DNA of 38,764 nt, taken from the NCBI GenBank assembly GCA_947632565.1, contig CANRPT010000009.1:1-38764 (forward strand). Reading direction: 5' to 3'. The DNA is from an uncultured Bacilli bacterium (GTDB lineage Bacteria > Bacillota_I > Bacilli_A > RF39 > UBA660). Position 1 is the first letter of the stretch. Each line of letters opens with the position of its first letter. The notes below the pieces were generated by a model, which saw only the letters and a list, made by a program, of their open reading frames with translations, did not search any database and was not told where the DNA came from. Position numbers and translations under genes: made by a program. Positions 9,201 through 38,764 of the stretch are shown here, piece after piece.

Positions 9201-10960
9201 ACCAAAGCCGTTCCTTCTGCATCATAATCTCCACGATGGTGACTTTCCTCATCCCAAGGAACATCATATCTTTTTACTAACGCACTCAAACTATGTCTGG
9301 CATAATTCGTATCTAGTGCACGAGATAATTCTAACGTATCAATCACTGGATTTTCGAATGTTCCCAGATGATATTTTTGATAAGCCATCTCCAAAAAAGA
9401 AGTATCAAACTTTGCATTATGAGCAACCATCGGTAAATTTCCATACCATTCGATAAATCTCTTAACAGCATTTTCTTCGTTATCTTTTCCTGCTAACATG
9501 GTATCCGTAATAGCAGTTAGTTCTGTAATTTTTGGATTTAAAGGTTTTCCAGGATTAATTAATTCATCATAACGATCGATAATTTCTCCATTACAGATTT
9601 TAACAGCTCCAATTTCAATAATGGAATCTTCTCCACCTGCATTAAATCCAGTTGTTTCAAAGTCAAAAACCACATACGTAGCATCCATTAATTTTTCCTT
9701 GGTTCCTCTTACAACAATATTAATACTATCATCAATTAGTGTTAATTCCGTTCCAAATAAAGCATGGAATTTTTCACTTTCTTCTTTTCCTTTATTGTAG
9801 TCTCTTACATGATTATATACATGTGGAAAAGCCTGACATCCGTTATGATCGGTAATCGCAATTCCACGATGACCAAATTTGATTGCCTGATCCACTAGTT
9901 TTATTTCATCTGCTACTCCATCCATTTGACTCATCATGGTATGCGCATGTAACTCTACTCTTTTTTCTTCTTCGGTATCTTTTACAGTAGTTGCTTCTTT
10001 TTCTAAAATATTAATATCTCTAGCATTTAAAACTAAATCTTTGGAGAATTGATCATTTTTGGTATATCCTCGAATTAAGAACCACTTTCCTTCTTTTAAA
10101 GTTTTCTTTATTGTTCCCAATTCTTCATCCCCATGTACAAATAATTTACAGTAAATACTATCTGAATAATCTGTAATCTTAAGTGTTAGAATCTTTAAAT
10201 CACTTTTGCTGGATTCAAACAAATCTGTACCAAAAATATATCCTTCTACGGTTACAGGATCCATTTCTCCTAAAATATTTTTCATTTGCATTGGATGATC
10301 ATGAATCACACTTCCTAAAACAACACTTGGATCATCCTCTTTTTTTACTTTTCGAGAATAATTTCCCTTTCGATAGTTGGTATAGTCTTTTGTCTCCTGG
10401 ATTTCCTCTTTTTTTTCTATTGGAACAACTACTATATCTTTTGTTGCCTCTTTTAATTCTGATAAAATTTGTTTTTTTGTTTCATTTTCTTTTTCTAGAT
10501 TAACTACTACTTCTAAAGGTGTATCAAATCCATATAAAGATAATAAAAAGTTTAGTTTTGGTAAAATCAGTTGTACTTGTTTTTCTTCTTCTTGATTTCC
10601 TACCTCAATTCGATATTCTTCTTCTCTTAAATTATCCTCAAAAATACTAGAAAACACCAAAAGGTCTTTGGTATTTTCTAAAGCATATCGATAATATTCT
10701 TTTAACTTTTGAAGAGATTTCATCCTTGGTATAATCTGTAAATATACTTCCTTAATACTAGAAAAAGCTTGTTTCGTTAATGTCTCTAATCTTTGATAAT
10801 CTGCTAACTCTAAGATATTAGGATTTGATAAAACAAAAGTCCAACTTCGATTTTTTTCATTTACTTTTACTTTTTCCAGTAACATATCGGAAAAACGGTT
10901 TCTAGTAACTTCATCTAACCCAATTTGATCAAATAATATTTTAATTTTATTTTCTTGCAT
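6287..10960 (-). CDS. polC: DNA polymerase III alpha subunit, PolC type
   Basis: The main replicative polymerase of low-GC Gram-positives, with a built-in proofreading nuclease. Visible in order: N-terminal domain (1-210); an OB fold (about 234-320, VEGYIFGTDLF); a PHP domain starting VELHAHT (His338, His340) and IAITDHNG; a DnaQ-like exonuclease inserted in the PHP domain with VVFDFETTGF (Asp433, Glu435), HNAKFDTSFL and HHRGDYDAEGTA; the rest of PHP; a zinc-binding pair (CRNPEC, CPKCGK); and the polymerase core with PDIDLNFSG and GTIGTVADKTAFGFVKGY. The C-terminus has a helix-hairpin-helix region and ends in a clamp-binding-like QMTLF. At 1557 residues it is about 120 longer than B. subtilis PolC. 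GGGGGG precedes ATG 10960. It follows the 10988-11827 gene by 27 bp and is probably co-transcribed with it. Confidence 0.98.
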   Translation of the reverse strand: MQENKIKILFDQIGLDEVTRNRFSDMLLEKVKVNEKNRSWTFVLSNPNILELADYQRLETLTKQAFSSIKEVYLQIIPRMKSLQKLKEYYRYALENTKDLLVFSSIFEDNLREEEYRIEVGNQEEEKQVQLILPKLNFLLSLYGFDTPLEVVVNLEKENETKKQILSELKEATKDIVVVPIEKKEEIQETKDYTNYRKGNYSRKVKKEDDPSVVLGSVIHDHPMQMKNILGEMDPVTVEGYIFGTDLFESSKSDLKILTLKITDYSDSIYCKLFVHGDEELGTIKKTLKEGKWFLIRGYTKNDQFSKDLVLNARDINILEKEATTVKDTEEEKRVELHAHTMMSQMDGVADEIKLVDQAIKFGHRGIAITDHNGCQAFPHVYNHVRDYNKGKEESEKFHALFGTELTLIDDSINIVVRGTKEKLMDATYVVFDFETTGFNAGGEDSIIEIGAVKICNGEIIDRYDELINPGKPLNPKITELTAITDTMLAGKDNEENAVKRFIEWYGNLPMVAHNAKFDTSFLEMAYQKYHLGTFENPVIDTLELSRALDTNYARHSLSALVKRYDVPWDEESHHRGDYDAEGTALVFHKMLKKLTDRNFETIQDLNRLVSQDEIHKYGRSYHVNLIAKNKTGLKNMFKLISLANTKYLYKTPRILRSEISRLREGLLVGSGCYESEVFTEARSKSEEELTNIISFYDYVEVQPPECYDHLLQMGDFASKEELLESISKIVRVTKESGKLIVATGDVHHITREDKIYREIIVNQKVPGGGRHPLAKNDIKEIPSNHLRTTNEMLEDFSFLDPEIRREIVITNPNKIVDMTEDIEVIIDTGGIPFSPKVANDDGTGYLDCPSVVTNLVYTKAESWYGNPLPYNIEERIATELYGDILRKTYLEQIEKNHPEYTNEEKEKFVFASLHNTIVQGFDAVKDVLRNHFQEIWDLEKDGECTEESLEKKVKKELGGIIGGGFDPIYLIAQRLVKHSNDEGYLVGSRGSVGSSFVATMMGITEVNALPAHYLCRNPECKYSEFLNEEGEPYGKEYSSGYDLPNKTCPKCGKTLGKEGQDMPFATFLGFNADKVPDIDLNFSGDNQASAHAYTKVLFGEDNVYRAGTIGTVADKTAFGFVKGYLEDKGITNMRTAEVERIALGCTGVKRTTGQHPGGIVVIPQYMDVFDFTPFQYPADDPESEWRTTHFDYHAIDQDVLKLDILGHDDPTVLRMLQDLSGIDVTTIPMDDQKVLSLLTSPEALGVTEEQILCPTGTLGVPEMGTKFVINMLVETKPKTFSGIVKISGLSHGTDVWAGNASELIANNICPFDKVIGCRDDIMVNLMNWGMKPIRAFKIMEFVRKGKASKDPETWKGMAEEMKEANVPDWYIESCRKIKYMFPKAHAVAYVMSALRIAWFKVYHPVWYYASYFSVRITDFDIETMMQGYHAIRKKIEDLTEKGFEATNKETSVLETLKIALESTARDVNFGPIDINKSDSRYFLIDEDGKTLIPPFRSIDGLGDTVAQNIVNERKERAFLSIEDLQKRAKISQTLIDKMKMMGILQDLPESSQMTLF

Positions 10961-10987
10961 GAAAATCCCCCCAAGTACTATTCTAAT

Positions 10988-11827
10988 TTAAATAATTTCT
11001 AAGGTATTAATACGAACAATTCTTTTTTGATTGTGAACACAGAATTCAATAAACTCCATTAAATTCTTTTTTTTCATTTCGGAATCAAAAACATACCGAT
11101 CCATTTCAAAAGTAATTTTATCTCTCATCATATATCCTGGAAATTCTTCTTTTTCACAACCTAAATACATTAACCAATAAGGATAAATCTGTTGTTTTAA
11201 ATAAGTTAAGGTTGGATCCCCTTCTTGATAATTACTTTTTCCACTTAATCTGGTATATAATTCATTTTGAAAAGCTAGCTCTAAGACCGCATCGACTATC
11301 TCTTGATAATCTTGATTTACTTTTCCCATTTCCACTCTAGTAATTGTTTCCATCATTTTGACAATCGTTTCAATTGGTTTTTTGGGATTTATTTGTTTTC
11401 CCCAACCAATTGTATTTCCTTTTGGTATCGTTAAACAAGAATTCATCACTGGATGTAATGCAATTACTTGATAGTCTTCTTTTACTGGAAATTTTAAGAT
11501 TTCTTTCAAAGAATCACGAATCTTTTTTTTATATTGATCCCATATTTTTAAAAGTTCTAAACGATACTTTTCTGTTCCTTCTTTTAACTGCAAGAAAAGT
11601 TTTGTTTCGAATACTAAATTATATAAAGTATCATCATCAGGAATAAAGTTTTTGATATCAGTCAGCATCTCTATTTTATCTTTTTGAAGTCTTTCATATT
11701 GTTTTCGATAAGTTAAATAAAGTTTTTGTTTAAATTTATGAACTGATTCAGAAAAAGAAGAACCATATAAAAGGTTCCAAGTTAATAAATAATCATTTGC
11801 TATAAAATGAAGTTGCATCTCATTCAT
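10988..11827 (-). CDS. Conserved-looking hypothetical protein between dnaE and polC
   Basis: I do not recognise the family. About 279 residues, mixed charge and mostly helical, with no signal peptide, membrane segment or nucleotide-binding motif. The N-terminal 110 residues are rich in Lys, Glu, Tyr and Leu and could form a coiled coil (YLTYRKQYERLQKDKIEML). The C-terminal half has a YPYWLMYLGCEKEEFPGYM segment and ends in a beta-rich tail (QKRIVRINTLEII). The frame opens with GTG at 11842, but AAAGGTAGTG places the start at ATG 11827. It lies between dnaE's terminator and polC, so it is probably the first gene of a two-gene unit with polC. A replication role is only guilt by association. Confidence 0.6.
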   Translation of the reverse strand: MNEMQLHFIANDYLLTWNLLYGSSFSESVHKFKQKLYLTYRKQYERLQKDKIEMLTDIKNFIPDDDTLYNLVFETKLFLQLKEGTEKYRLELLKIWDQYKKKIRDSLKEILKFPVKEDYQVIALHPVMNSCLTIPKGNTIGWGKQINPKKPIETIVKMMETITRVEMGKVNQDYQEIVDAVLELAFQNELYTRLSGKSNYQEGDPTLTYLKQQIYPYWLMYLGCEKEEFPGYMMRDKITFEMDRYVFDSEMKKKNLMEFIEFCVHNQKRIVRINTLEII

Positions 11828-16285: not shown

Positions 16286-17569
16286 TTAATTTTGAAGTAA
16301 ATTCGTTTTATAAGTAGTAATAACGGGACGGGCTCCATAAGCAATAGATATATCAGTCACATTGGAAGTGCGGGAAAATCCATAAAATCCATGGACCATA
16401 TAGGCGGCTTTGGCATATATAGAAGTACCTGGATATTCTGTCTTGGTCCAATAATTCGTGGTTAATAACCAAGGGGTAGAAATATCTTGACTATATAATT
16501 GAACTGTTTTCCCCTCTACCGCCATAATTTGTGAAATTTCTGGTAAAGTGATATTCGTCGTTCCAGGTAAATTCTTTGTTACGAGTGGAGCATAAGTATT
16601 TTTGATAAAATATCCTATATTATTTTCATCACTTTCATCATAAGTAGTTGTTCCGTCGGGATCAAATGGCATAGTACTACAAGTAAAATCGCCGGAACGG
16701 TATTCTCTAAACTGTCCATAACAAGAAGTATTATAACTTCCATCTTTGTTTAAATTATAATCAGATAATAACGTTACCATTTCTGTTTCTTTCTTACTAC
16801 TTTCTAAAACATGCCATTTACTTCCATCAATTCCTGCTACTTGGTCTCCTACTCTTAATTCTGTATCCTTGGTCATTGTGATTCTATCTTTTAACTCAAA
16901 ATTACAAATCATGACTTCTTCTCCTATTTTAGGTAACGTTAATTCCCATGTAATATTATCGAACTTCGTTGCGATTCCATTACATTTTACACTCTCTACT
17001 CGGTATCCTTCCTCTTGTGATGGAAATTTCATAGGATTTTCTTTTTCTCCGGTGTAATTCCATGCTAGGATCACATCTCTTCCTTCTAATTTCGTTATCG
17101 CTTTTCCATATTTGGAAATATCATCAAAATCTAAATTAGAAAAACCACCATGTACTCCAAATGTTATAGTTACTTGCTTTTTAGAAGGATTAATGATTAA
17201 AATTTTCACTTCTTTTGTTCCAAACTTTTCTATCATTCCTTGTGGTAAATCTTTACTATCCTTAGCATATCCAATTTGGATATTACTATTATCAGAAAGA
17301 GAATAATATAATTCATATTTCGAATCTATTTTATTTAAACTAGTTAGTTTTAAGGTTAATTCAGTATAAACATCATTTGGTTGTAGAGTAATCTGATGAT
17401 CCGTTAAATGAGAACTTTCTATTTGATAGTCTAAAGTTCCTGCTACAATATTTAATTTTCCATGTTCCTCTATTTGATGTGTAAAAAAAGCATAAGAATA
17501 ATAAGCAATTGAGGTAAAAAGTGCAATGATAATTAAAAAAATGAAATAAATAATTTTATTCTTATTCAT
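16286..17569 (-). CDS. Secreted surface protein with TasA-like N-terminus and RPV module
   Basis: 427 residues. An N-terminal hydrophobic helix (IIYFIFLIIIALFTSIAYYSYA) is followed by AFFTHQIEEHGKLNIVAGTLDY, which resembles the start of TasA/camelysin-type fibre proteins whose signal peptides are cut by SipW. A beta-rich region follows (to about residue 225). The C-terminal part has SKWHVLESS, TTNYWTKTEYP and YGARPVITTY, a divergent form of the WRIV/WWTS/RPVV module in the 1842-2939 protein. The assignment to TasA is inference from the signal region only; no SipW gene is in the window. AGGAGG precedes ATG 17569. The leader carries two inverted palindromes (17581-17609 and 17738-17760), which suggests unusual control. 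Confidence 0.6.
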   Translation of the reverse strand: MNKNKIIYFIFLIIIALFTSIAYYSYAFFTHQIEEHGKLNIVAGTLDYQIESSHLTDHQITLQPNDVYTELTLKLTSLNKIDSKYELYYSLSDNSNIQIGYAKDSKDLPQGMIEKFGTKEVKILIINPSKKQVTITFGVHGGFSNLDFDDISKYGKAITKLEGRDVILAWNYTGEKENPMKFPSQEEGYRVESVKCNGIATKFDNITWELTLPKIGEEVMICNFELKDRITMTKDTELRVGDQVAGIDGSKWHVLESSKKETEMVTLLSDYNLNKDGSYNTSCYGQFREYRSGDFTCSTMPFDPDGTTTYDESDENNIGYFIKNTYAPLVTKNLPGTTNITLPEISQIMAVEGKTVQLYSQDISTPWLLTTNYWTKTEYPGTSIYAKAAYMVHGFYGFSRTSNVTDISIAYGARPVITTYKTNLLQN

Positions 17570-17580
17570 ATAATTCCTCC

Positions 17581-17760
17581 TAGTTTTTAAGTAATGAACT
17601 TAAAAACTAAAAAAATTACCTCTATCATTTTATTGGTAGCATATGAGCAAGATTTTTGTGATCCTTTTTTTCTAATTTTTCATGATAAAATTTTTTGAAT
17701 CTCCTTTTAAAGGATAGATGAAAAGAAAAAAATAAAATATCTAAGTTCATTACTTAGATA
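17581..17760. repeat. Pair of inverted palindromes flanking the 427-residue gene's leader
   Basis: Site 1 (17581-17609): arms TAGTTTTTAAGT and ACTTAAAAACTA around spacer AATGA. Site 2 (17738-17760): arms TATCTAAGT and ACTTAGATA around spacer TCATT. The 15-bp cores (TAAGT-spacer-ACTTA) are exact inverted repeats of each other about 150 bp apart. Site 1 abuts the AGGAGG of the downstream gene. Site 2 on the minus strand is followed by a U-rich run and could act as a terminator. The layout fits recombinase core sites bounding an invertible segment, or two RNA hairpins that can pair with each other. The rest of 17610-17840 shows no gene. Confidence 0.6.
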
Positions 17761-17840
17761 CTTCATATTCTATGATAAGTATATCACTACCAAAAGAAAA
17801 ATAAAATACATTTTTCAAAACTTTTTTGGACTTGTAGAAC

Positions 17841-31798: not shown

Positions 31799-32755
31799 CT
31801 AAGAATGATTTTTCCAAATCATATTCATACATTTTTTCTTTTGTGATAAATTAGGATGTACATATAAATTTAAGGTAATACTAATATCAGAATGCCCTAA
31901 TAATTCACTCACTGTCTTGTAATCAACTCCTAAACTAATACAGTTGGTAGCAAAAGTATGTCTCAAACTATGAAAATTAATGGGTTTCATTTTTAATTTT
32001 TTTAAAGTTGTATTAAAATATTTTCGATATGCTCTGGGTTCTACTCCTTCCAAAGTAGAACTTAACACATAAAACTTTGGATTTACTTTTAAAGGCTTGA
32101 TAATTGCAGCAAAATCTCTACTCATTGGGATATCACGGTTAGAATGAATTGTTTTAGGTGGTGAAACAACAATCCTAGATGTCACCTCATTTACATTTTT
32201 TAAATAAATTCTCTGTAGGGTTTTATTAATATGAATGATATTATTTTTAAAATCAATATCTGACCATTTTAAAGCACATAATTCACCTATTCGAATGCCT
32301 GAATATAGTGAAATTAAAATCCCAGCATTTCTAGGATTTAAGTTATTTAGTGCATATTCCGTTATTTTTCTTTGTTCTCGTTTTGTTAAAACATATATTT
32401 TTTGTTTCCTATGATTTTTAGGATAAATAAAATCTAAATTTATTTGGCTCATTTTTCCTTCATTCATGGCATATTTTAAACTACTTTTTAAAACCATCAT
32501 AATATCTTTTACTGTTTTTTCAGATAATCCTTTATCGGTTGCTACTCTTCCTGATTTTAATTTGTCTAAAATATATTTTTGTAATTCATTATGGGATATA
32601 TCTTGTAAATAGATATCTCCTAAATCTGGAATTAAATGATTATAAATGACATTGGCATAATTTGCATGGGTAGATTCTTTGACATAATCTTTTTTATATT
32701 TTAACCATCCTACTACCCAATCTCTATAAAATATTTTTTGGTTTTCATTATTCAC
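31799..32755 (-). CDS. Tyrosine site-specific recombinase next to surface-protein cassettes
   Basis: Breaks and rejoins DNA at specific sites through a phosphotyrosine. 318 residues counted from the GTG. The N-terminal arm/core-binding domain (about 1-110, ESTHANYANVIYNHLIPDLG) is followed by the catalytic domain with YSGIRIGELCALKW (Arg), PPKT (Lys), HSLRHTFAT (His, Arg), LLGHSDISIT (His) and LNLYVHP (Tyr). All six active-site residues are present. GTG 32755 is chosen, 11 bases after AAAAGGAG; a longer frame starts at 32767. It is divergent from cassette A, whose core site lies only 140 bp away, the usual layout of a recombinase next to its site. It could also be a remnant integrase of a lost element. 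Confidence 0.85.
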   Translation of the reverse strand: MNNENQKIFYRDWVVGWLKYKKDYVKESTHANYANVIYNHLIPDLGDIYLQDISHNELQKYILDKLKSGRVATDKGLSEKTVKDIMMVLKSSLKYAMNEGKMSQINLDFIYPKNHRKQKIYVLTKREQRKITEYALNNLNPRNAGILISLYSGIRIGELCALKWSDIDFKNNIIHINKTLQRIYLKNVNEVTSRIVVSPPKTIHSNRDIPMSRDFAAIIKPLKVNPKFYVLSSTLEGVEPRAYRKYFNTTLKKLKMKPINFHSLRHTFATNCISLGVDYKTVSELLGHSDISITLNLYVHPNLSQKKKCMNMIWKNHS

Positions 32756-32895
32756 AACAAACCACACTCCTTTTCAAAAAATAAAATATCATAAATTTTT
32801 AAAAAGGGGGAAAAAGTTACAATTTTTTTATTTTTTTGATTTTTGAGAATTAGTTTAAATCTTTTATGTATATAGTTAAAATAAATTTTGGATTA

Positions 32896-32920
32896 GTTTC
32901 AAAGTAGTTAACTTAGAAAC
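32896..32920 (+). repeat. Core site A, putative recombination site
   Basis: Left arm GTTTCAAAGT, spacer AGTTA, right arm ACTTAGAAAC. The arms are inverted repeats with one mismatch (9/10). The same 25 bp occurs at site C, and a version with two differences at site B. Homology between the three cassettes starts exactly here. Confidence 0.65.
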
Positions 32921-34349
32921 CACAGATCCAAGTGCTCCAACGATAGCTGGAGGTTCTTCATCATGGTCAGCAAAAGCTTTAACAATCAATGTTTCAAAGG
33001 AATCTACCGCAACAAGTGGAATCAAAAATTATCAATATTGTGAAGCAACAACCAATAGTGTAACCAACTGTTCTTGGAATGATCTAACAAATGGAACAAA
33101 ATCAGTATCCATTTCTACCAATGGAACAAACTACATCTTTTTTCGAGCAGTATCTAATGCAGGTAGAAGTGGTAAAGTTTCTAGTTTCCAAACTACTATG
33201 ATAGAAACCACTAATCCAACAACACCAGTAATCCAAGGAGGAGAAACTACCTGGTCACAAGTTGCTAAAACAATTAGTGTAAAAACAGTTTCAACGGCAG
33301 CAAGTGGAATTAAAAATTATCAATATTGTGAAGCAACAACTAATAGTGCAAACAGCTGTGCTTGGAATAATTTAGCAAGTAATGTAACATCAGTATCCAT
33401 TTCTACCAATGGAACAAAATATATTTTCTTTCGAGCAGTATCTAATGCAGGAAGATATAGTTCAGCATCAACTTCTCAAACAACTATGATAGATACTACA
33501 AATCCAACAATCTCTATTAATAGTAATCTACCTACTTCTATTACGAAAGGAGATAGTTATCCTATATTGGGAAGCTATGCAGCAAATGGTCCAAGTAGCG
33601 GAAGTGCTAGTTGCAGTAGCGATAGAGATGGAGCAGTAGAAGATACTAAACAACTAACCACTATAGGAAGTCATATTATCACTTGTACAGTAACAACAGG
33701 TGCTAAAAAAAGTGTTTCTACTACGAAAACAATTAATATTACTTATACATCATATCAAATTACCAATCTTGTTACAAATGGTTCTTTTGAGAAGAATGGA
33801 ATTAGTGAATGGTATAATCAAAATAAAACAGAATTTTGGTTATTTATAAATTTAAACGATTACCCTTATATTCCACAATTATTTGGGAATTATGCCTTTA
33901 ATATACACGTTAATAATGATCAATCTTTTGCTAGAGCCAGTTATAATACTACAAGTACATTAGCCAACCATAAAGTTTATGCTAGAGTATGGGCTATGAT
34001 AGATTATGGAACAGATATTGATCCAGGTTTATATTTAGAATTTTCAGAAGGATCTGATTTGTGGTCAACTCCATCCCAAAATCATAGCACTTGGTATAGT
34101 AGTAATGGATATGATAATAATACAGAAAGAAGAATATGGCGTTCTTTAGCACTCTATGAGACAGCAACATATAACTATTTAAAAATAATGTTAGCTCAAG
34201 GCAATGGTACTGGAAATGGAGTTTACATGTTTGATGGATTAACGGTAGTAGATTTAACAGCAGCTTTTGGAGCAGGAAATGAACCAAATAAAGATTGGTG
34301 TGATAAACACATTAATTATTTTGATGGTACAACTGAAATTTATAAATAA
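32898..34349 (+). CDS. Surface-protein cassette A without a start codon
   Basis: An open frame of 483 codons that begins inside core site A (FKVVNLETTDPSAPTIAGG) and has no ATG or ribosome binding site before it; the first in-frame Met is at 33198. It holds two Ig-like repeats of about 97 residues (SGIKNYQYCEATTNS, NGTNYIFFRAVSNAGR), a third HYR-like repeat (PTISINSNLPTSITKGD), then a C-terminal domain of about 200 residues. That domain resembles a carbohydrate-binding jelly roll (NLVTNGSFEKNGISEW) and ends DLTAAFGAGNEPNKDWCD, a motif common in surface and phage-tail proteins. There is no signal peptide or anchor, so it is probably a silent 3' cassette. IS1182-like element follows immediately. 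Confidence 0.7.
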   Translation, partial: FKVVNLETTDPSAPTIAGGSSSWSAKALTINVSKESTATSGIKNYQYCEATTNSVTNCSWNDLTNGTKSVSISTNGTNYIFFRAVSNAGRSGKVSSFQTTMIETTNPTTPVIQGGETTWSQVAKTISVKTVSTAASGIKNYQYCEATTNSANSCAWNNLASNVTSVSISTNGTKYIFFRAVSNAGRYSSASTSQTTMIDTTNPTISINSNLPTSITKGDSYPILGSYAANGPSSGSASCSSDRDGAVEDTKQLTTIGSHIITCTVTTGAKKSVSTTKTINITYTSYQITNLVTNGSFEKNGISEWYNQNKTEFWLFINLNDYPYIPQLFGNYAFNIHVNNDQSFARASYNTTSTLANHKVYARVWAMIDYGTDIDPGLYLEFSEGSDLWSTPSQNHSTWYSSNGYDNNTERRIWRSLALYETATYNYLKIMLAQGNGTGNGVYMFDGLTVVDLTAAFGAGNEPNKDWCDKHINYFDGTTEIYK

Positions 34350-34387
34350 CAAAAAGGGGATGTTAGAAAATAGATGATATATTTTCT

Positions 34388-35989
34388 TTACATCTTCTTT
34401 TCTTTTTGCTTTACAGTAGGAAAAACTTCCTCTTGTAAAATAGTTGGACTATTCCAATAACTTTTTTTAATTAAATAAGGTTCATCAAATAGTTTAAATA
34501 ATTTTCTAATATTAACACCTAAACACTCTAACATAAATTCACACTCAACACTATTGATACCCCTTCTTCTAAATCTTGTATAATTCATATTTTGTTTTAT
34601 TTGCCCATAAGTTCCTTCTACTTGAATACTTCTATTTATTCTAATTTCTATTCCTTCTAAACTTAATAGATTTTTTCTTGCTTCTTCTTTAAAAGTTTCG
34701 TATTTAACACTTAATTCTACTTTTCTAAAATTTTGAGATTTATCTTTTAAATATTCTTTACATTTATAAGAGTAATTGCAGTTATTACAACCAGTGAATT
34801 GATAAAATTTTGAATCGGAATATCTTGGATGAGTTTTAGTGAAAATATATTCACCAATATTTCCATTCAAACACCTAAAGCTATTATTATCTAAAAAGAA
34901 TAATTTTGGTCTCTTTCCTGATGCTTCACCATTCCAAGAACTAAACTTTAAATAATTTCCAATATTGTTTTGACTTAAAAATTCGTAATTGGTATAAATC
35001 CCATACCCTGAATCACCACACAATTTATGAGGATATTTATTATAGGATTTATAATATCTTTTTAACATTGGAATCAATGTATTTTGATCATCTCTATTTT
35101 GAAATATTCCATACATCATTATTAATCCACTTGATACAATTACTTGAGTGTTATATGCAGCATGAAAATCATGACTTAGTTTTGAATAATAGTCTTCTTT
35201 TAATACCATAGCTGTTGCATCAACATCAGTTTTATAATAGGAATTTCTTCCATCTCCACAAAGTCTTTCTTTTTCTTCATATTCTATTAATTTGTTTAAA
35301 TATTCATATCCTTTTTTTATTATTTTTTGGGATTTGGTTAGTCTTTTACCTTTGCCACTAGGAATATCATAATAATCTATATCATTTGAATTTGCATAAT
35401 TGGTTACTAAAATAATAACTTCTTCTGCTTTTATGTTCTTTTCATTTTCATATTCAAAATTCATTTCTTTTATTAAATCTTTAATTTTTAAATCTAACTT
35501 TTTATGATATGATTTAGGTTTCCACACAAAATTATATTTATTAGCATTGGCTTCTATTTTAGTTCCATCTATATATTGATTTTCAATGTTTATATTATAT
35601 TCCTTAATTATTGCTTTTGTTATTAGTGAAAATATTTCTATAGAATATGGTTTAATATATTTATTTATAAAATCACAAAAAGTTGCATAGCTGGGTTCAT
35701 TTTGTTCCATTAAATATATAACTCTTAAATCGGTGTAACATAATTTTTCTAATTCTCTAACTGAACTTCTAAATTCTGAAAAACAATATAAAACTGTTGC
35801 CATCATATTGTATGGATTATAACTGTTTCTCCCTTTACACTTTTTTTGTTTCTTATTTACATTTTCTATAATTTGATTAATTCCTGATTTTTGTAGAATA
35901 TTTAAAAATTTATCTATTTTTTCATACTCCTTATAACATTTAGTTGAAGGAAATTGAAAAATAGCCCTTTTTATAGTAAAATTATTCAT
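34388..35989 (-). CDS. IS1182-family DDE transposase
   Basis: 533 residues from ATG 35989. Typical order for IS1182: the N-terminal domain (YNPYNMMATVLYCFSEFRSSVRELE), YIDGTKIEANANKYNFVWK with the first Asp, KLCGDSGYG with the second Asp, a Cys-rich segment (CNNCNYSYKC), and EGTYGQIKQNMNYTRFRRRG with the catalytic Glu. No frameshift or stop, so it may be active. The frame extends upstream to 36025, but a TGATACAAT promoter lies within that extension, which argues for ATG 35989. Ribosome binding site is weak (GAAAGTTGG). Confidence 0.88.
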   Translation of the reverse strand: MNNFTIKRAIFQFPSTKCYKEYEKIDKFLNILQKSGINQIIENVNKKQKKCKGRNSYNPYNMMATVLYCFSEFRSSVRELEKLCYTDLRVIYLMEQNEPSYATFCDFINKYIKPYSIEIFSLITKAIIKEYNINIENQYIDGTKIEANANKYNFVWKPKSYHKKLDLKIKDLIKEMNFEYENEKNIKAEEVIILVTNYANSNDIDYYDIPSGKGKRLTKSQKIIKKGYEYLNKLIEYEEKERLCGDGRNSYYKTDVDATAMVLKEDYYSKLSHDFHAAYNTQVIVSSGLIMMYGIFQNRDDQNTLIPMLKRYYKSYNKYPHKLCGDSGYGIYTNYEFLSQNNIGNYLKFSSWNGEASGKRPKLFFLDNNSFRCLNGNIGEYIFTKTHPRYSDSKFYQFTGCNNCNYSYKCKEYLKDKSQNFRKVELSVKYETFKEEARKNLLSLEGIEIRINRSIQVEGTYGQIKQNMNYTRFRRRGINSVECEFMLECLGVNIRKLFKLFDEPYLIKKSYWNSPTILQEEVFPTVKQKEKKM

Positions 35990-36030
35990 GTGATACCAAC
36001 TTTCTAGACAAAAGTATTGTATCACAAAAT

Positions 36031-36065
36031 GCCCGTAAATCTTAAGGATTACGGGCCTTTTTTAT
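36031..36065 (+). terminator. Outward-facing terminator at the end of the IS
   Basis: GCCCGTAA and TTACGGGC stem followed on the plus strand by CTTTTTTTATTTT. It blocks transcription crossing from inside the IS; placed upstream of the transposase, it may also limit antisense reading. Confidence 0.7.
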
Positions 36066-36138
36066 TTTCATTCAAGAAAAAGAAGATGATAGAAATAAAT
36101 TATTTATTTTCTAACATCCCCTTTTGCTATTTTATTTT

Positions 36139-37002
36139 TTATTTAACAGTAAACGTTTGATAATACCAATCATCTTGCCTTGGATTTTGATTTTGAGTAT
36201 ATCCAACCCAATCGAATGCTCTAACATATACTTTCCAAATACCTTTTTCTGAATAGGAATAAATAGTATTGCTTTCTGTAGATGTTCCACTTGATTTTAA
36301 TACATTATCTAAATAAATTTCATAATTAAAATAATGAAGTGCAATGTCATTGACTGTGATTATAAACTTTCCAGATGTATTCGTAATAGAAATTGTTGGA
36401 GCGGTTTTATCAATTGCTATCGAATTAGGTTGTGATGTGATACTAGGAGTTCCCGCATTATTAATTGCTCTAAAGAATACAAAATATAATCCTTCTTTAG
36501 ATATTGTTACAGTATCCCCATCTATCCATTCACCACCTATCAAGTTTTCATTAGTTGTAGATATATAGTATTGATATTTAGCTATTCCACTCGTTGATGT
36601 AGAAGTATTTGTAACTTTTCTTGTTTGATTGGTATTTACCCAAGTATAATTAGAGACTCCATTACCTTGAGGAGCAGTAGGTGGTTGGGTATCTATCTTG
36701 GTAGTTTGAGAAGCTGATGCTACACTAGTTCTTCCTGCATTAGATACTGCTCGAAAGAAGATGTAGTTTGTTCCATTGGTAGAAATGGATTGACTGGAAG
36801 TTGTTGTTGCACAATCTGTCCAATTTCCTCCTGTTGGAGTAGTTGCATCTGTTGAGATATAATATTGATAATTTTTAATTCCACTGATTGCAGTAGATTC
36901 CTTTGAAACATTGATTGTTAAAGCTTTTGCTGACCATGATGAAGAACCTCCAGCTATCGTTGGAGCACTTGGATCTGTGGTTTCTAATTTAACTACTTTG
37001 AA
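36139..37002 (-). CDS. Surface-protein cassette B without a start codon
   Basis: 287 open codons from core site B to a TAA next to the IS. It begins FKVVKLETTDPSAPTIAGG like cassette A, then has a first Ig-like repeat (SGIKNYQYYISTDATTP, NGTNYIFFRAVSNAGRTS), a second repeat (IDTQPPTAPQGNGV, IAKYQYYISTTNENLIGGEW, FVFFRAINNAGT) and a different C-terminal end (KTAPTISITNTSGKF to WYYQTFTVK). The frame stays open upstream into a hydrophobic stretch (LILFLLIVISYN) but no start codon or ribosome binding site is seen, and a TAG precedes it. Its orientation is opposite to cassettes A and C. Confidence 0.68.
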   Translation of the reverse strand, partial: FKVVKLETTDPSAPTIAGGSSSWSAKALTINVSKESTAISGIKNYQYYISTDATTPTGGNWTDCATTTSSQSISTNGTNYIFFRAVSNAGRTSVASASQTTKIDTQPPTAPQGNGVSNYTWVNTNQTRKVTNTSTSTSGIAKYQYYISTTNENLIGGEWIDGDTVTISKEGLYFVFFRAINNAGTPSITSQPNSIAIDKTAPTISITNTSGKFIITVNDIALHYFNYEIYLDNVLKSSGTSTESNTIYSYSEKGIWKVYVRAFDWVGYTQNQNPRQDDWYYQTFTVK

Positions 37003-37004
37003 AT
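36980..37004 (-). repeat. Core site B, putative recombination site
   Basis: Minus-strand version of sites A and C, with two differences (ATTTCAAAGT left arm; AATTAGAAAC right arm; same AGTTA spacer). Inverted relative to A and C, so pairing with either would invert the DNA between them. Confidence 0.55.
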
Positions 37005-37065: not shown

Positions 37066-38265
37066 TTAAAAAATACAAGATATCGGGATAATATAATTTT
37101 TTTCATCTAACGGAAGAATATCAGGATATAAACAAATAATACCTCCTATCCCTATCTTTTTCTTTGTCTTTTCAAGAATTTTAAAGTGTTTAATCATATC
37201 TTTGGAAGGATTAGCTGCTTTTTTAATTTCTAATGGATATAAAGTATCATTTTCAAAAAGTACTAAATCTACTTCTATACCATCTTTATCTCTATAATAG
37301 TAAATTCCCATATTATTTCCAGAGTTTTTATAATTTTTAATTAATTCACTTATTACAAATGTTTCTAAATAATGTCCACTAACACTACTATTCATTAACG
37401 TTTCTGGACTCGACCACTTACATAAATAAGAGCATAATCCCGTATCCATAAAATAAATTTTAGGATTTTTTATAGCCCTCTTCAACTCTAAATTATGATA
37501 TGGTTCTAATAAATATATAATTCCTGTAGCAACTAAAATAGATAACCAACTTTTAACTGTATTAACACTTATTTCTGCATCAGTAGCAATAGAACTATAA
37601 TTCAAAACTTCACCAGTTCTACTTGCTACGCTAACTAAAAATTTATGAAAACTAGTTAAATCTCCAACTTGAGTTAAATCTCTTACATCCCTTTCTAAGT
37701 ATGTTTTTATATATGTGCTAAAATATGCTTCTCTTTCAAATCGATTTAAATAGTAATTAGGCATTCCACCCATAAATATTTGTTCAAATAGTTCAGAAAT
37801 GTCTAATTGATATCCTAATTTTATATTTTCTGTTTGGAAAACTTTTGCATTTAATTTTTTCTTTTCACATATAGAAAGAGAATTCATTTCTAGAATTCCA
37901 ATCCTACCTGCTAATGACTCAGTAATATTTTTCATTAGTTGAAATTGTTGTGATCCAGTTAACCAATACAATCCAGTTTCCTCTGTATTATCAACCATAG
38001 ATTTTATATATGGTAATAACTCTGGAGCATACTGTATTTCATCAATAATAAGTGGTGGTTTATAGGTTTGTAAAAATAATTTTGGATCATCTTTTGCTAA
38101 AGTCCTAACTTCTAATTCATCTAAAGAAATATAGTTTCTTTCTTTCTCTTTAATATTTTTTAACATAGTTGTTTTTCCGACTTGTCTTGGACCAGTAATT
38201 AATAAAACTTTAAAACTTTTATTTAATTCTAAAAATCTTTTTTCAATATTTCTTGTTAAATACAT
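37066..38265 (-). CDS. AAA_14/DUF4143 family ATPase
   Basis: 399 residues. Walker A LLITGPRQVGKTTML and Walker B PPLIIDEIQYAPELL lie in the N-terminal AAA_14 domain, with sensor WLTGSQQFQLM. FMGGMPNYYL, LERDVRDL and a winged-helix-like NYSSIATDAEISVNTVKSWL follow. The C-terminal DUF4143 part has ELIKNY, KDGIEVDLV and YPLEIKKA, which resembles a PD-(D/E)xK nuclease core (Asp, Glu-x-Lys). The family is common in mobile regions and its substrate is unknown. AAGGGAGAG precedes ATG 38265. It lies alone between cassettes B and C, as accessory cargo. Confidence 0.85.
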   Translation of the reverse strand: MYLTRNIEKRFLELNKSFKVLLITGPRQVGKTTMLKNIKEKERNYISLDELEVRTLAKDDPKLFLQTYKPPLIIDEIQYAPELLPYIKSMVDNTEETGLYWLTGSQQFQLMKNITESLAGRIGILEMNSLSICEKKKLNAKVFQTENIKLGYQLDISELFEQIFMGGMPNYYLNRFEREAYFSTYIKTYLERDVRDLTQVGDLTSFHKFLVSVASRTGEVLNYSSIATDAEISVNTVKSWLSILVATGIIYLLEPYHNLELKRAIKNPKIYFMDTGLCSYLCKWSSPETLMNSSVSGHYLETFVISELIKNYKNSGNNMGIYYYRDKDGIEVDLVLFENDTLYPLEIKKAANPSKDMIKHFKILEKTKKKIGIGGIICLYPDILPLDEKNYIIPISCIF

Positions 38266-38410: not shown

Positions 38411-38435
38411 GTTTCAAAGTAGTTAACTTAGAAAC
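38411..38435 (+). repeat. Core site C, putative recombination site
   Basis: Identical over 25 bp to site A and in the same orientation, so recombination between A and C would excise 5.5 kb. Confidence 0.65.
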
Positions 38436-38764
38436 CACAGATCCAAGTGCGCCAACAATAGCTGGAGGTTCTTCATCATGGTCTTCAAAAGCTTTAACAA
38501 TTAATGTTTCAAAGGAATCTACTGCAATCAGTGGAATTAAAAATTATCAATATTATATCTCAACAGATGCAACTACTCCAACAGGAGGAAATTGGACAAA
38601 TTGTGCAACAACAACTTCCAGTCAATCCATTTCTACCAATGGAACAAAATATATCTTTTTTCGAGCAATATCCAATGCAGGTAGAAATGGTAAAGTTTCT
38701 AGTTCCCAAACTACTATGATAGAAACCACTAATCCAACAACACCAGTAATCCAAGGAGGAGCAA
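38413..38764 (+). CDS. Surface-protein cassette C (mosaic, cut by window end)
   Basis: Open frame from core site C to the end of the window, again without start codon or ribosome binding site. The first Ig-like repeat has the middle of cassette B (YYISTDATTPTGGNWTNC) but the end of cassette A (KVSSSQTTMIETTNPTTPVI), so it is a mosaic. The hairpin-like AAAAAAGCGCTTTT just upstream is a possible terminator remnant. The true 3' end lies outside. Confidence 0.65.

Follow-up and report, generated by a model that had tools for sequence, protein, structure and literature searches.

We analyzed a stretch of DNA of 38,764 nucleotides (hereafter the window), i.e., positions 1 to 38,764 of contig CANRPT010000009.1 (C9) in the assembly GCA_947632565.1 (G000) of an uncultured Bacilli bacterium. 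The window contains three copies of a 25-bp sequence, each located at the left end of a silent cassette: site A at 32896..32920 on the plus strand (GTTTCAAAGT-AGTTA-ACTTAGAAAC), site B at 36980..37004 on the minus strand (ATTTCAAAGT-AGTTA-AATTAGAAAC), and site C at 38411..38435 on the plus strand, with the same sequence as A. Our re-reading of these positions confirmed the preliminary description of the three copies, in which B carries two changes relative to the identical A and C. The 10-bp inverted arms that it had also described are present, but they are not perfect: A and C each have 9 of 10 positions paired, and B has 7 of 10. The sites thus have inverted arms on either side of a short spacer, which is the form of a tyrosine recombinase site. 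An arm pairing of 9/10 is reached at 16 of about 38,740 positions in the window, with A and C among these 16, and full 10/10 pairing occurs at sites on contig C14 of the congener G007 and on contigs C10 and C43 of the window's own genome. Searching the window with a 23-bp pattern, and allowing up to three mismatches, gave three matches where 0.01 were expected, and no shuffled sequence reached three. All three sites, as well as the expressed copy described below, have the crossover spacer AGTTA, and the orientations of the sites (A plus, B minus, C plus) include both directions, as inversion-based cassette exchange requires. A further match to TAANTTAGAAAC, on contig C31, lies inside a coding gene and lacks the left arm, and was discarded as a chance match; a search for the site in viral contigs gave no match.

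Each site had been proposed to mark the 5′ limit of homology between the cassettes, and this is borne out by the flanking sequence, where the 50 bp to the left show 36-42% identity among A, B and C and the 50 bp to the right show 92-100%. The in-frame FKVVNLE joint proposed for the site stands for A and C only, as B reads FKVVKLE and the expressed gene reads SPQVVKLE. The F of this joint is part of the silent left flank, and so would be lost on exchange.

Cassette A (32898..34349, plus strand) is a start-less frame that runs from site to stop and encodes two repeats of ~96 aa followed by a C-terminal domain. Cassette B (36139..37002, minus strand) is a start-less frame lying tail to tail with A, and is the closest of the three to the one that the expressed gene currently carries, while cassette C (38413..38764, plus strand), also start-less, is truncated by the contig end. 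In A, B and C alike, there is no ATG, GTG or TTG between the closest in-frame upstream stop and the site, so that these cassettes are silent as they stand. Between the stops of A and B lies an insertion sequence (34342..36135, minus strand), which has terminal inverted repeats of 43 nt (84%) and contains a DUF772/DDE transposase gene (34388-36025); the counterpart cassettes in the congener G006 (L054) are only 7 bp apart. Sites B and C lie head to head, and the gap separating them is occupied by an AAA_14/DUF4143 ATPase gene (37066..38265, minus strand). In two species, genes for DUF4143 ATPases are present between cassette sites that lie head to head, with one in the window and three in G007, where each of three gaps in a cassette array holds one, and 4 of the 9 DUF4143 matches in four genomes sit in such inter-cassette gaps. 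None of the papers listed in a literature search on DUF4143 and inversion mentions DUF4143.

A search of the genome for other copies, as suggested in the preliminary description, identified one more contig with the sequence among the 80 contigs of the window's own genome. This contig, C35, matches at the DNA level from just inside the site, with 96% identity, and contains a 907-aa surface-protein ORF, open at the contig end, with its in-frame joint at this site (SPQVVKLETTDPSAP). The gene (L010:11094 onward) has a start codon, an N-terminus that is hydrophobic as judged by eye, and repeats with four cadherin-like matches, and towards its 3′ part it carries the site in the same reading frame. 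The ORF passes in frame through GTCCTCAAGT-AGTTA-AATTAGAAAC into a near-identical copy of cassette B, with one base different over the comparable stretch. The spacer and right arm of the C35 site are as in B and its left arm is gene-specific. The right-arm difference of A and C accompanies the cassette, the difference in the left arm remains with the flank, and the exchange can accordingly be assigned to AAGTAGTTAA. This genome contains a single expressed 5′ part together with multiple silent 3′ cassettes that can be joined to it in frame, an organization of the shufflon or vsa-like kind.

C9 and C35 are assembled as separate contigs that both terminate inside cassettes, and they may be neighbours on the chromosome. 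The break in C35 is explained without inversion, since this contig ends at a 77-nt repeat common to cassettes B and C. The overlap of its end with B and C was rejected as proof of inversion, as for C it amounts to exactly 77 nt, like the overlaps at other contig ends of these assemblies. Contig breaks are expected at repeats, and these two ends would also fit an assembly artefact in which misjoined repeats mimic common cassettes; however, the same architecture is present within single contigs, i.e., C9 with three sites, C90 of G007 with six, and C67 of G006, and we regard such an artefact as highly improbable.

The gene adjoining site A encodes a complete tyrosine recombinase of 322 aa (31799..32767, minus strand), and starts 128 bp from the site. 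The protein matches the Pfam domains Phage_integrase PF00589 (4e-26) and Phage_int_SAM_3 and contains the catalytic domain of the tyrosine recombinase family (R, H-x-x-R, H, Y), with residues R159, H266, R269, H292 and Y302 invariant in the recombinases of the window and of three congeners, which are 87, 76 and 74% identical to the window protein. It also matches the PDB Int 6emy at 8.5e-16, and its tyrosine aligns with that of 6en0. As with the recombinase gene in the window, the orthologues in G007 (C14) and G006 (C67) adjoin a site. The closest relatives outside the genus, with 55-56% identity, are flanked in L137 and L138 by inverted genes that belong to the type I specificity family. In Mycoplasma pulmonis, the tyrosine recombinase HvsR, encoded near the vsa genes, is reported to act at vsa and hsd genes (PMC2268961), and PsrA acts at hsdS repeats in Streptococcus pneumoniae (PMC7096588). 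Based on these relatives at hsdS-type genes, and on the activity of HvsR and PsrA at hsd and hsdS genes, the recombinase encoded in the window is likely to be an invertase, and it is the likely candidate for the enzyme that acts at these sites.

In the loci of these relatives (L137, L138 and L139, ~9,300-11,600), the 55-56% identical recombinases lie between inverted repeats, which in L137 and L138 are located within hsdS-type genes, and the latter two are likely phase-variable type I restriction loci. One relative's genome also contains a CRISPR-like array (L137:15791-16290) with eight 36-bp direct repeats at a spacing of ~66 bp. A perfect palindrome in L140 was dropped as evidence, since it is not adjacent to hsdS.

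Analysis of the congeners allowed us to locate junctions. The preliminary description had suggested looking for junctions at the spacer, and had named junctions elsewhere in the homologous region, of the RecA type, as the outcome that would speak against a recombinase site. In the assemblies we see the opposite of the latter, in that the common sequence begins at the T-N5-A of the site in two congeners. In G006, the contig that ends in the expression gene and the one bearing the recombinase gene enter one cassette that is identical over 122 nt, from TAACTA to the contig end, and the sequence to the left of this common cassette is unrelated between the two flanks. Similarly, the recombinase flank and an array flank of G007 enter one cassette with 74 nt in common from TAACTA onward. 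The spacer is AACTA at both G006 sites and at the integrase-side and array sites of G007. The cassettes with two flanks in these congeners may be duplicates instead of population variants. The expression gene of G011 has 77% identity to C35 up to the site and then continues into a different cassette, and a silent flank at the C7 end in this genome (ATTTCAAAGT-AATAA-ACTTAGAAAC) has the same spacer, AATAA, as this expression gene.

The congener G007 also provides an assembled array, with contig C90 (L244) containing six cassettes that all differ, lack a start codon and alternate in orientation (-,+,-,+,-,+). The sites of this array are about 25 bp long, with the left arm TATTTTAATT, the spacer AACTA and the right arm ACTTAGATAC or a close variant. 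Among the six cassettes the site is 84-100% identical, and the 50 bp to its left and right are mostly 20-50% identical. The only expression-like gene found in G007 (C41; L107 ~9300, minus strand) has the spacer TGTTA, compared to AACTA in the array. The expression partner of the array is therefore either absent from the assembled sequence or of a different type.

These findings bear on whether the cassettes are exchanged at the site or by homology. The A, B and C cassettes of G000 have several hundred bp in common at 83-92% identity, which suffices for RecA, and the palindrome might accordingly be a mere start of coding homology among cassettes that undergo RecA-dependent gene conversion or crossover. 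However, the left arm is kept in the silent copies even though it is untranslated there and the sequence to the left of it is unrelated; the cassettes of G007 are common only over the 25-bp site, which is too small a homology for ordinary RecA exchange; the junctions lie at T-N5-A in two relatives; and spacers match within pairs of sites and vary among loci. RecA-dependent exchange is thus very improbable, and the preliminary reading of the 25-bp sequence as a recombinase site is supported by the T-N5-A junctions, by the restriction of homology to the site in G007 and by the adjoining recombinase gene. Alternatively, the cassettes could be decayed duplicates, i.e., dead fragments from the activity of insertion sequences with no current recombination, as the insertion sequence between A and B and the lack of start codons might indicate. 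This does not agree with the frames of A and B, which stay open from site to stop over up to 483 codons, with the six diverse and intact cassettes of G007, or with the retention of the architecture in congeners, and there is very little chance that it is correct.

Sites with related arms are also present elsewhere in the window, at a second invertible segment with a left site at 17583..17607 on the plus strand (GTTTTTAAGT-AATGA-ACTTAAAAAC) and a right site at 17737..17761 on the minus strand, where AATGA is read on the minus strand, hence an inverted pair. These two sites bound a segment of ~130 bp directly upstream of a surface-protein-like gene of 427 aa (16286..17569, minus strand), which starts 13 bp from the segment. 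From its position and size only, the region 17583-17761 is likely to be a promoter inverton; a promoter scan of the segment scored at chance level. The C-terminal part encoded by the 427-aa gene resembles, by eye, that of cassette c6 of G007 (L244:8064-8654; WHVLE...LLSDYNLN...NIGYFI), and modules seem to be common to different switch types. Palindromic site pairs located 145-156 bp apart are present in the window (17583/17737), on contig C68 and in G011. In all six of the short inverted pairs the spacers are exact inverted copies of each other, and the spacer varies by locus.

A further type of switch concerns surface genes whose head segment is invertible. The window's own genome has three such paralogues (L011:5950-6420, L111:3857-4330 and L112:4771-5240), two of which are OFF and one ON. 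On C10 and C43, both OFF, a short surface-protein head points away from a headless gene. Inversion of this head in silico at the common spacer (ATCTA or ATCGA) yields a protein collinear with that of C53, the intact ON paralogue, which itself carries the reciprocal tail at its upstream site.

Across the genus, the pattern TNTAAGT-N5-ACTTANA clearly exceeds the control only in G000 (10 vs 2) and G011 (16 vs 0). The shorter TAAGT-N5-ACTTA barely exceeds its control (12 vs 8); we therefore take only the longer pattern and the pairing of sites as informative, and not TAAGT-N5-ACTTA alone. These counts bear on which enzyme acts. The sites could be real and be acted upon by another tyrosine recombinase, such as the XerC/D-like C7 or C15 or the tandem C13 pair, with the recombinase gene on C9 a chance neighbour. 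Five additional recombinase-like matches in the window's own genome, the orthologue in G011 with no site next to the gene, and four related patterns in G014, which has no close orthologue, are all consistent with this. Set against it, recombinase-like genes of ~300 aa occur genus-wide, even where the site pattern is no more frequent than the control; the pattern rises clearly above the control only in G000 and G011, the genomes with the most similar C9-type recombinases (87%); and a site adjoins the recombinase gene in three species. We consider the involvement of a different recombinase unlikely, although it is the least improbable of the alternatives to the C9 enzyme acting at these sites.

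Taken together, our analysis makes it highly probable that a shufflon/vsa-like inversion system for surface variation uses the 25-bp sequence as its recombination site, and that, by this system, alternative promoterless tails of a large surface protein can probably be swapped in frame onto one expressed head. In the proposed mechanism, the expressed gene on C35 would provide the start codon, the hydrophobic N-terminus and the cadherin-like repeats, and the silent cassettes A, B and C, and probably more, would serve as C-terminal modules, each headed by a site and in alternating orientation. The neighbouring tyrosine recombinase would bind both arms of two sites, and strands would be exchanged within the 5-bp spacer plus the flanking T and A (T-N5-A). 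Recombination of opposed sites would invert the intervening DNA, so that a different cassette would follow the expressed head in the same reading frame. The anatomy of the sites, the in-frame joins, the two flanks per cassette in relatives, the ON and OFF paralogues and the T-N5-A junction are read directly from the sequences; the choice of enzyme, the chromosomal order of C35 and C9 and switching in live cells are inferred. The system would serve to vary the cell surface, perhaps as a defence against host immunity or phages.

More tentatively, and with somewhat less than even confidence, we propose that one recombinase runs three kinds of switches, with common arms and a private 5-bp spacer as the address of each locus, and that the DUF4143 ATPases are part of this system. 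These switches would comprise promoter flips, flips of a promoter plus N-terminus in surface genes, and C-terminal cassette exchange, and the locus-specific spacer would prevent cross-recombination between loci.

By architecture, the system resembles the shufflon of R64 (pilV, Rci), where alternative C-terminal cassettes with short sites and alternating orientation serve one constant N-terminal gene; in both, the C-terminal cassettes are headed by sites, and the left arm may differ at the expression copy. It differs in that the system here is probably chromosomal, encodes a surface protein as opposed to a pilus tip, and has 25-bp near-palindromic silent sites. By mode of working, it resembles the vsa system of M. 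pulmonis, in which one expressed 5′ part (promoter, ribosome site and first 714 nt) is joined to silent 3′ ends by site-specific inversion (PMC2268961). The likeness to vsa/HvsR comprises a constant 5′ part, silent 3′ ends and a nearby tyrosine recombinase gene, and extends to the closest non-genus relatives of the present recombinase, which sit between inverted hsdS genes. However, the host is an uncultured gut Bacilli bacterium, the proteins seem to be unrelated, and the system here has ATPase genes in gaps as well as N-terminal and promoter-sized switches with related sites.

For the hsdS inversions by PsrA/CreX in S. pneumoniae, a 15-bp IR1 and the sequence immediately upstream of it are required (PMC7096588). 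As in that system, the recombinase gene is in the locus, and IR1 with its upstream sequence resembles the spacer and right arm, with a variable left arm, described here; the targets of PsrA are methylase specificity genes, whereas those here are surface proteins. The inverted pairs described here, which have common arms, lie about 155 bp apart and are scattered over several loci, suggest that one enzyme acts at many places, as do the global promoter invertases of the Bacteroides fragilis type. The present case differs in that three kinds of switches have common arms, and the assignment of the enzyme is putative. The combination of three switch types with related arms, private spacers and gap ATPases was not found in the library searched, nor did this library contain a paper on invertons in this lineage.

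Our findings describe a vsa/shufflon-like system of surface variation in an uncultured gut lineage of Bacilli with small genomes, with an array assembled in a congener and paralogues present in both states. If true, the reading of common arms and private spacers would provide a clear natural test of the way in which a single invertase can act at many loci with no cross-talk. In addition, the presence of relatives of this recombinase at hsdS genes would make it possible to trace the kinship of the enzymes that shuffle methylases and those that shuffle surface proteins.
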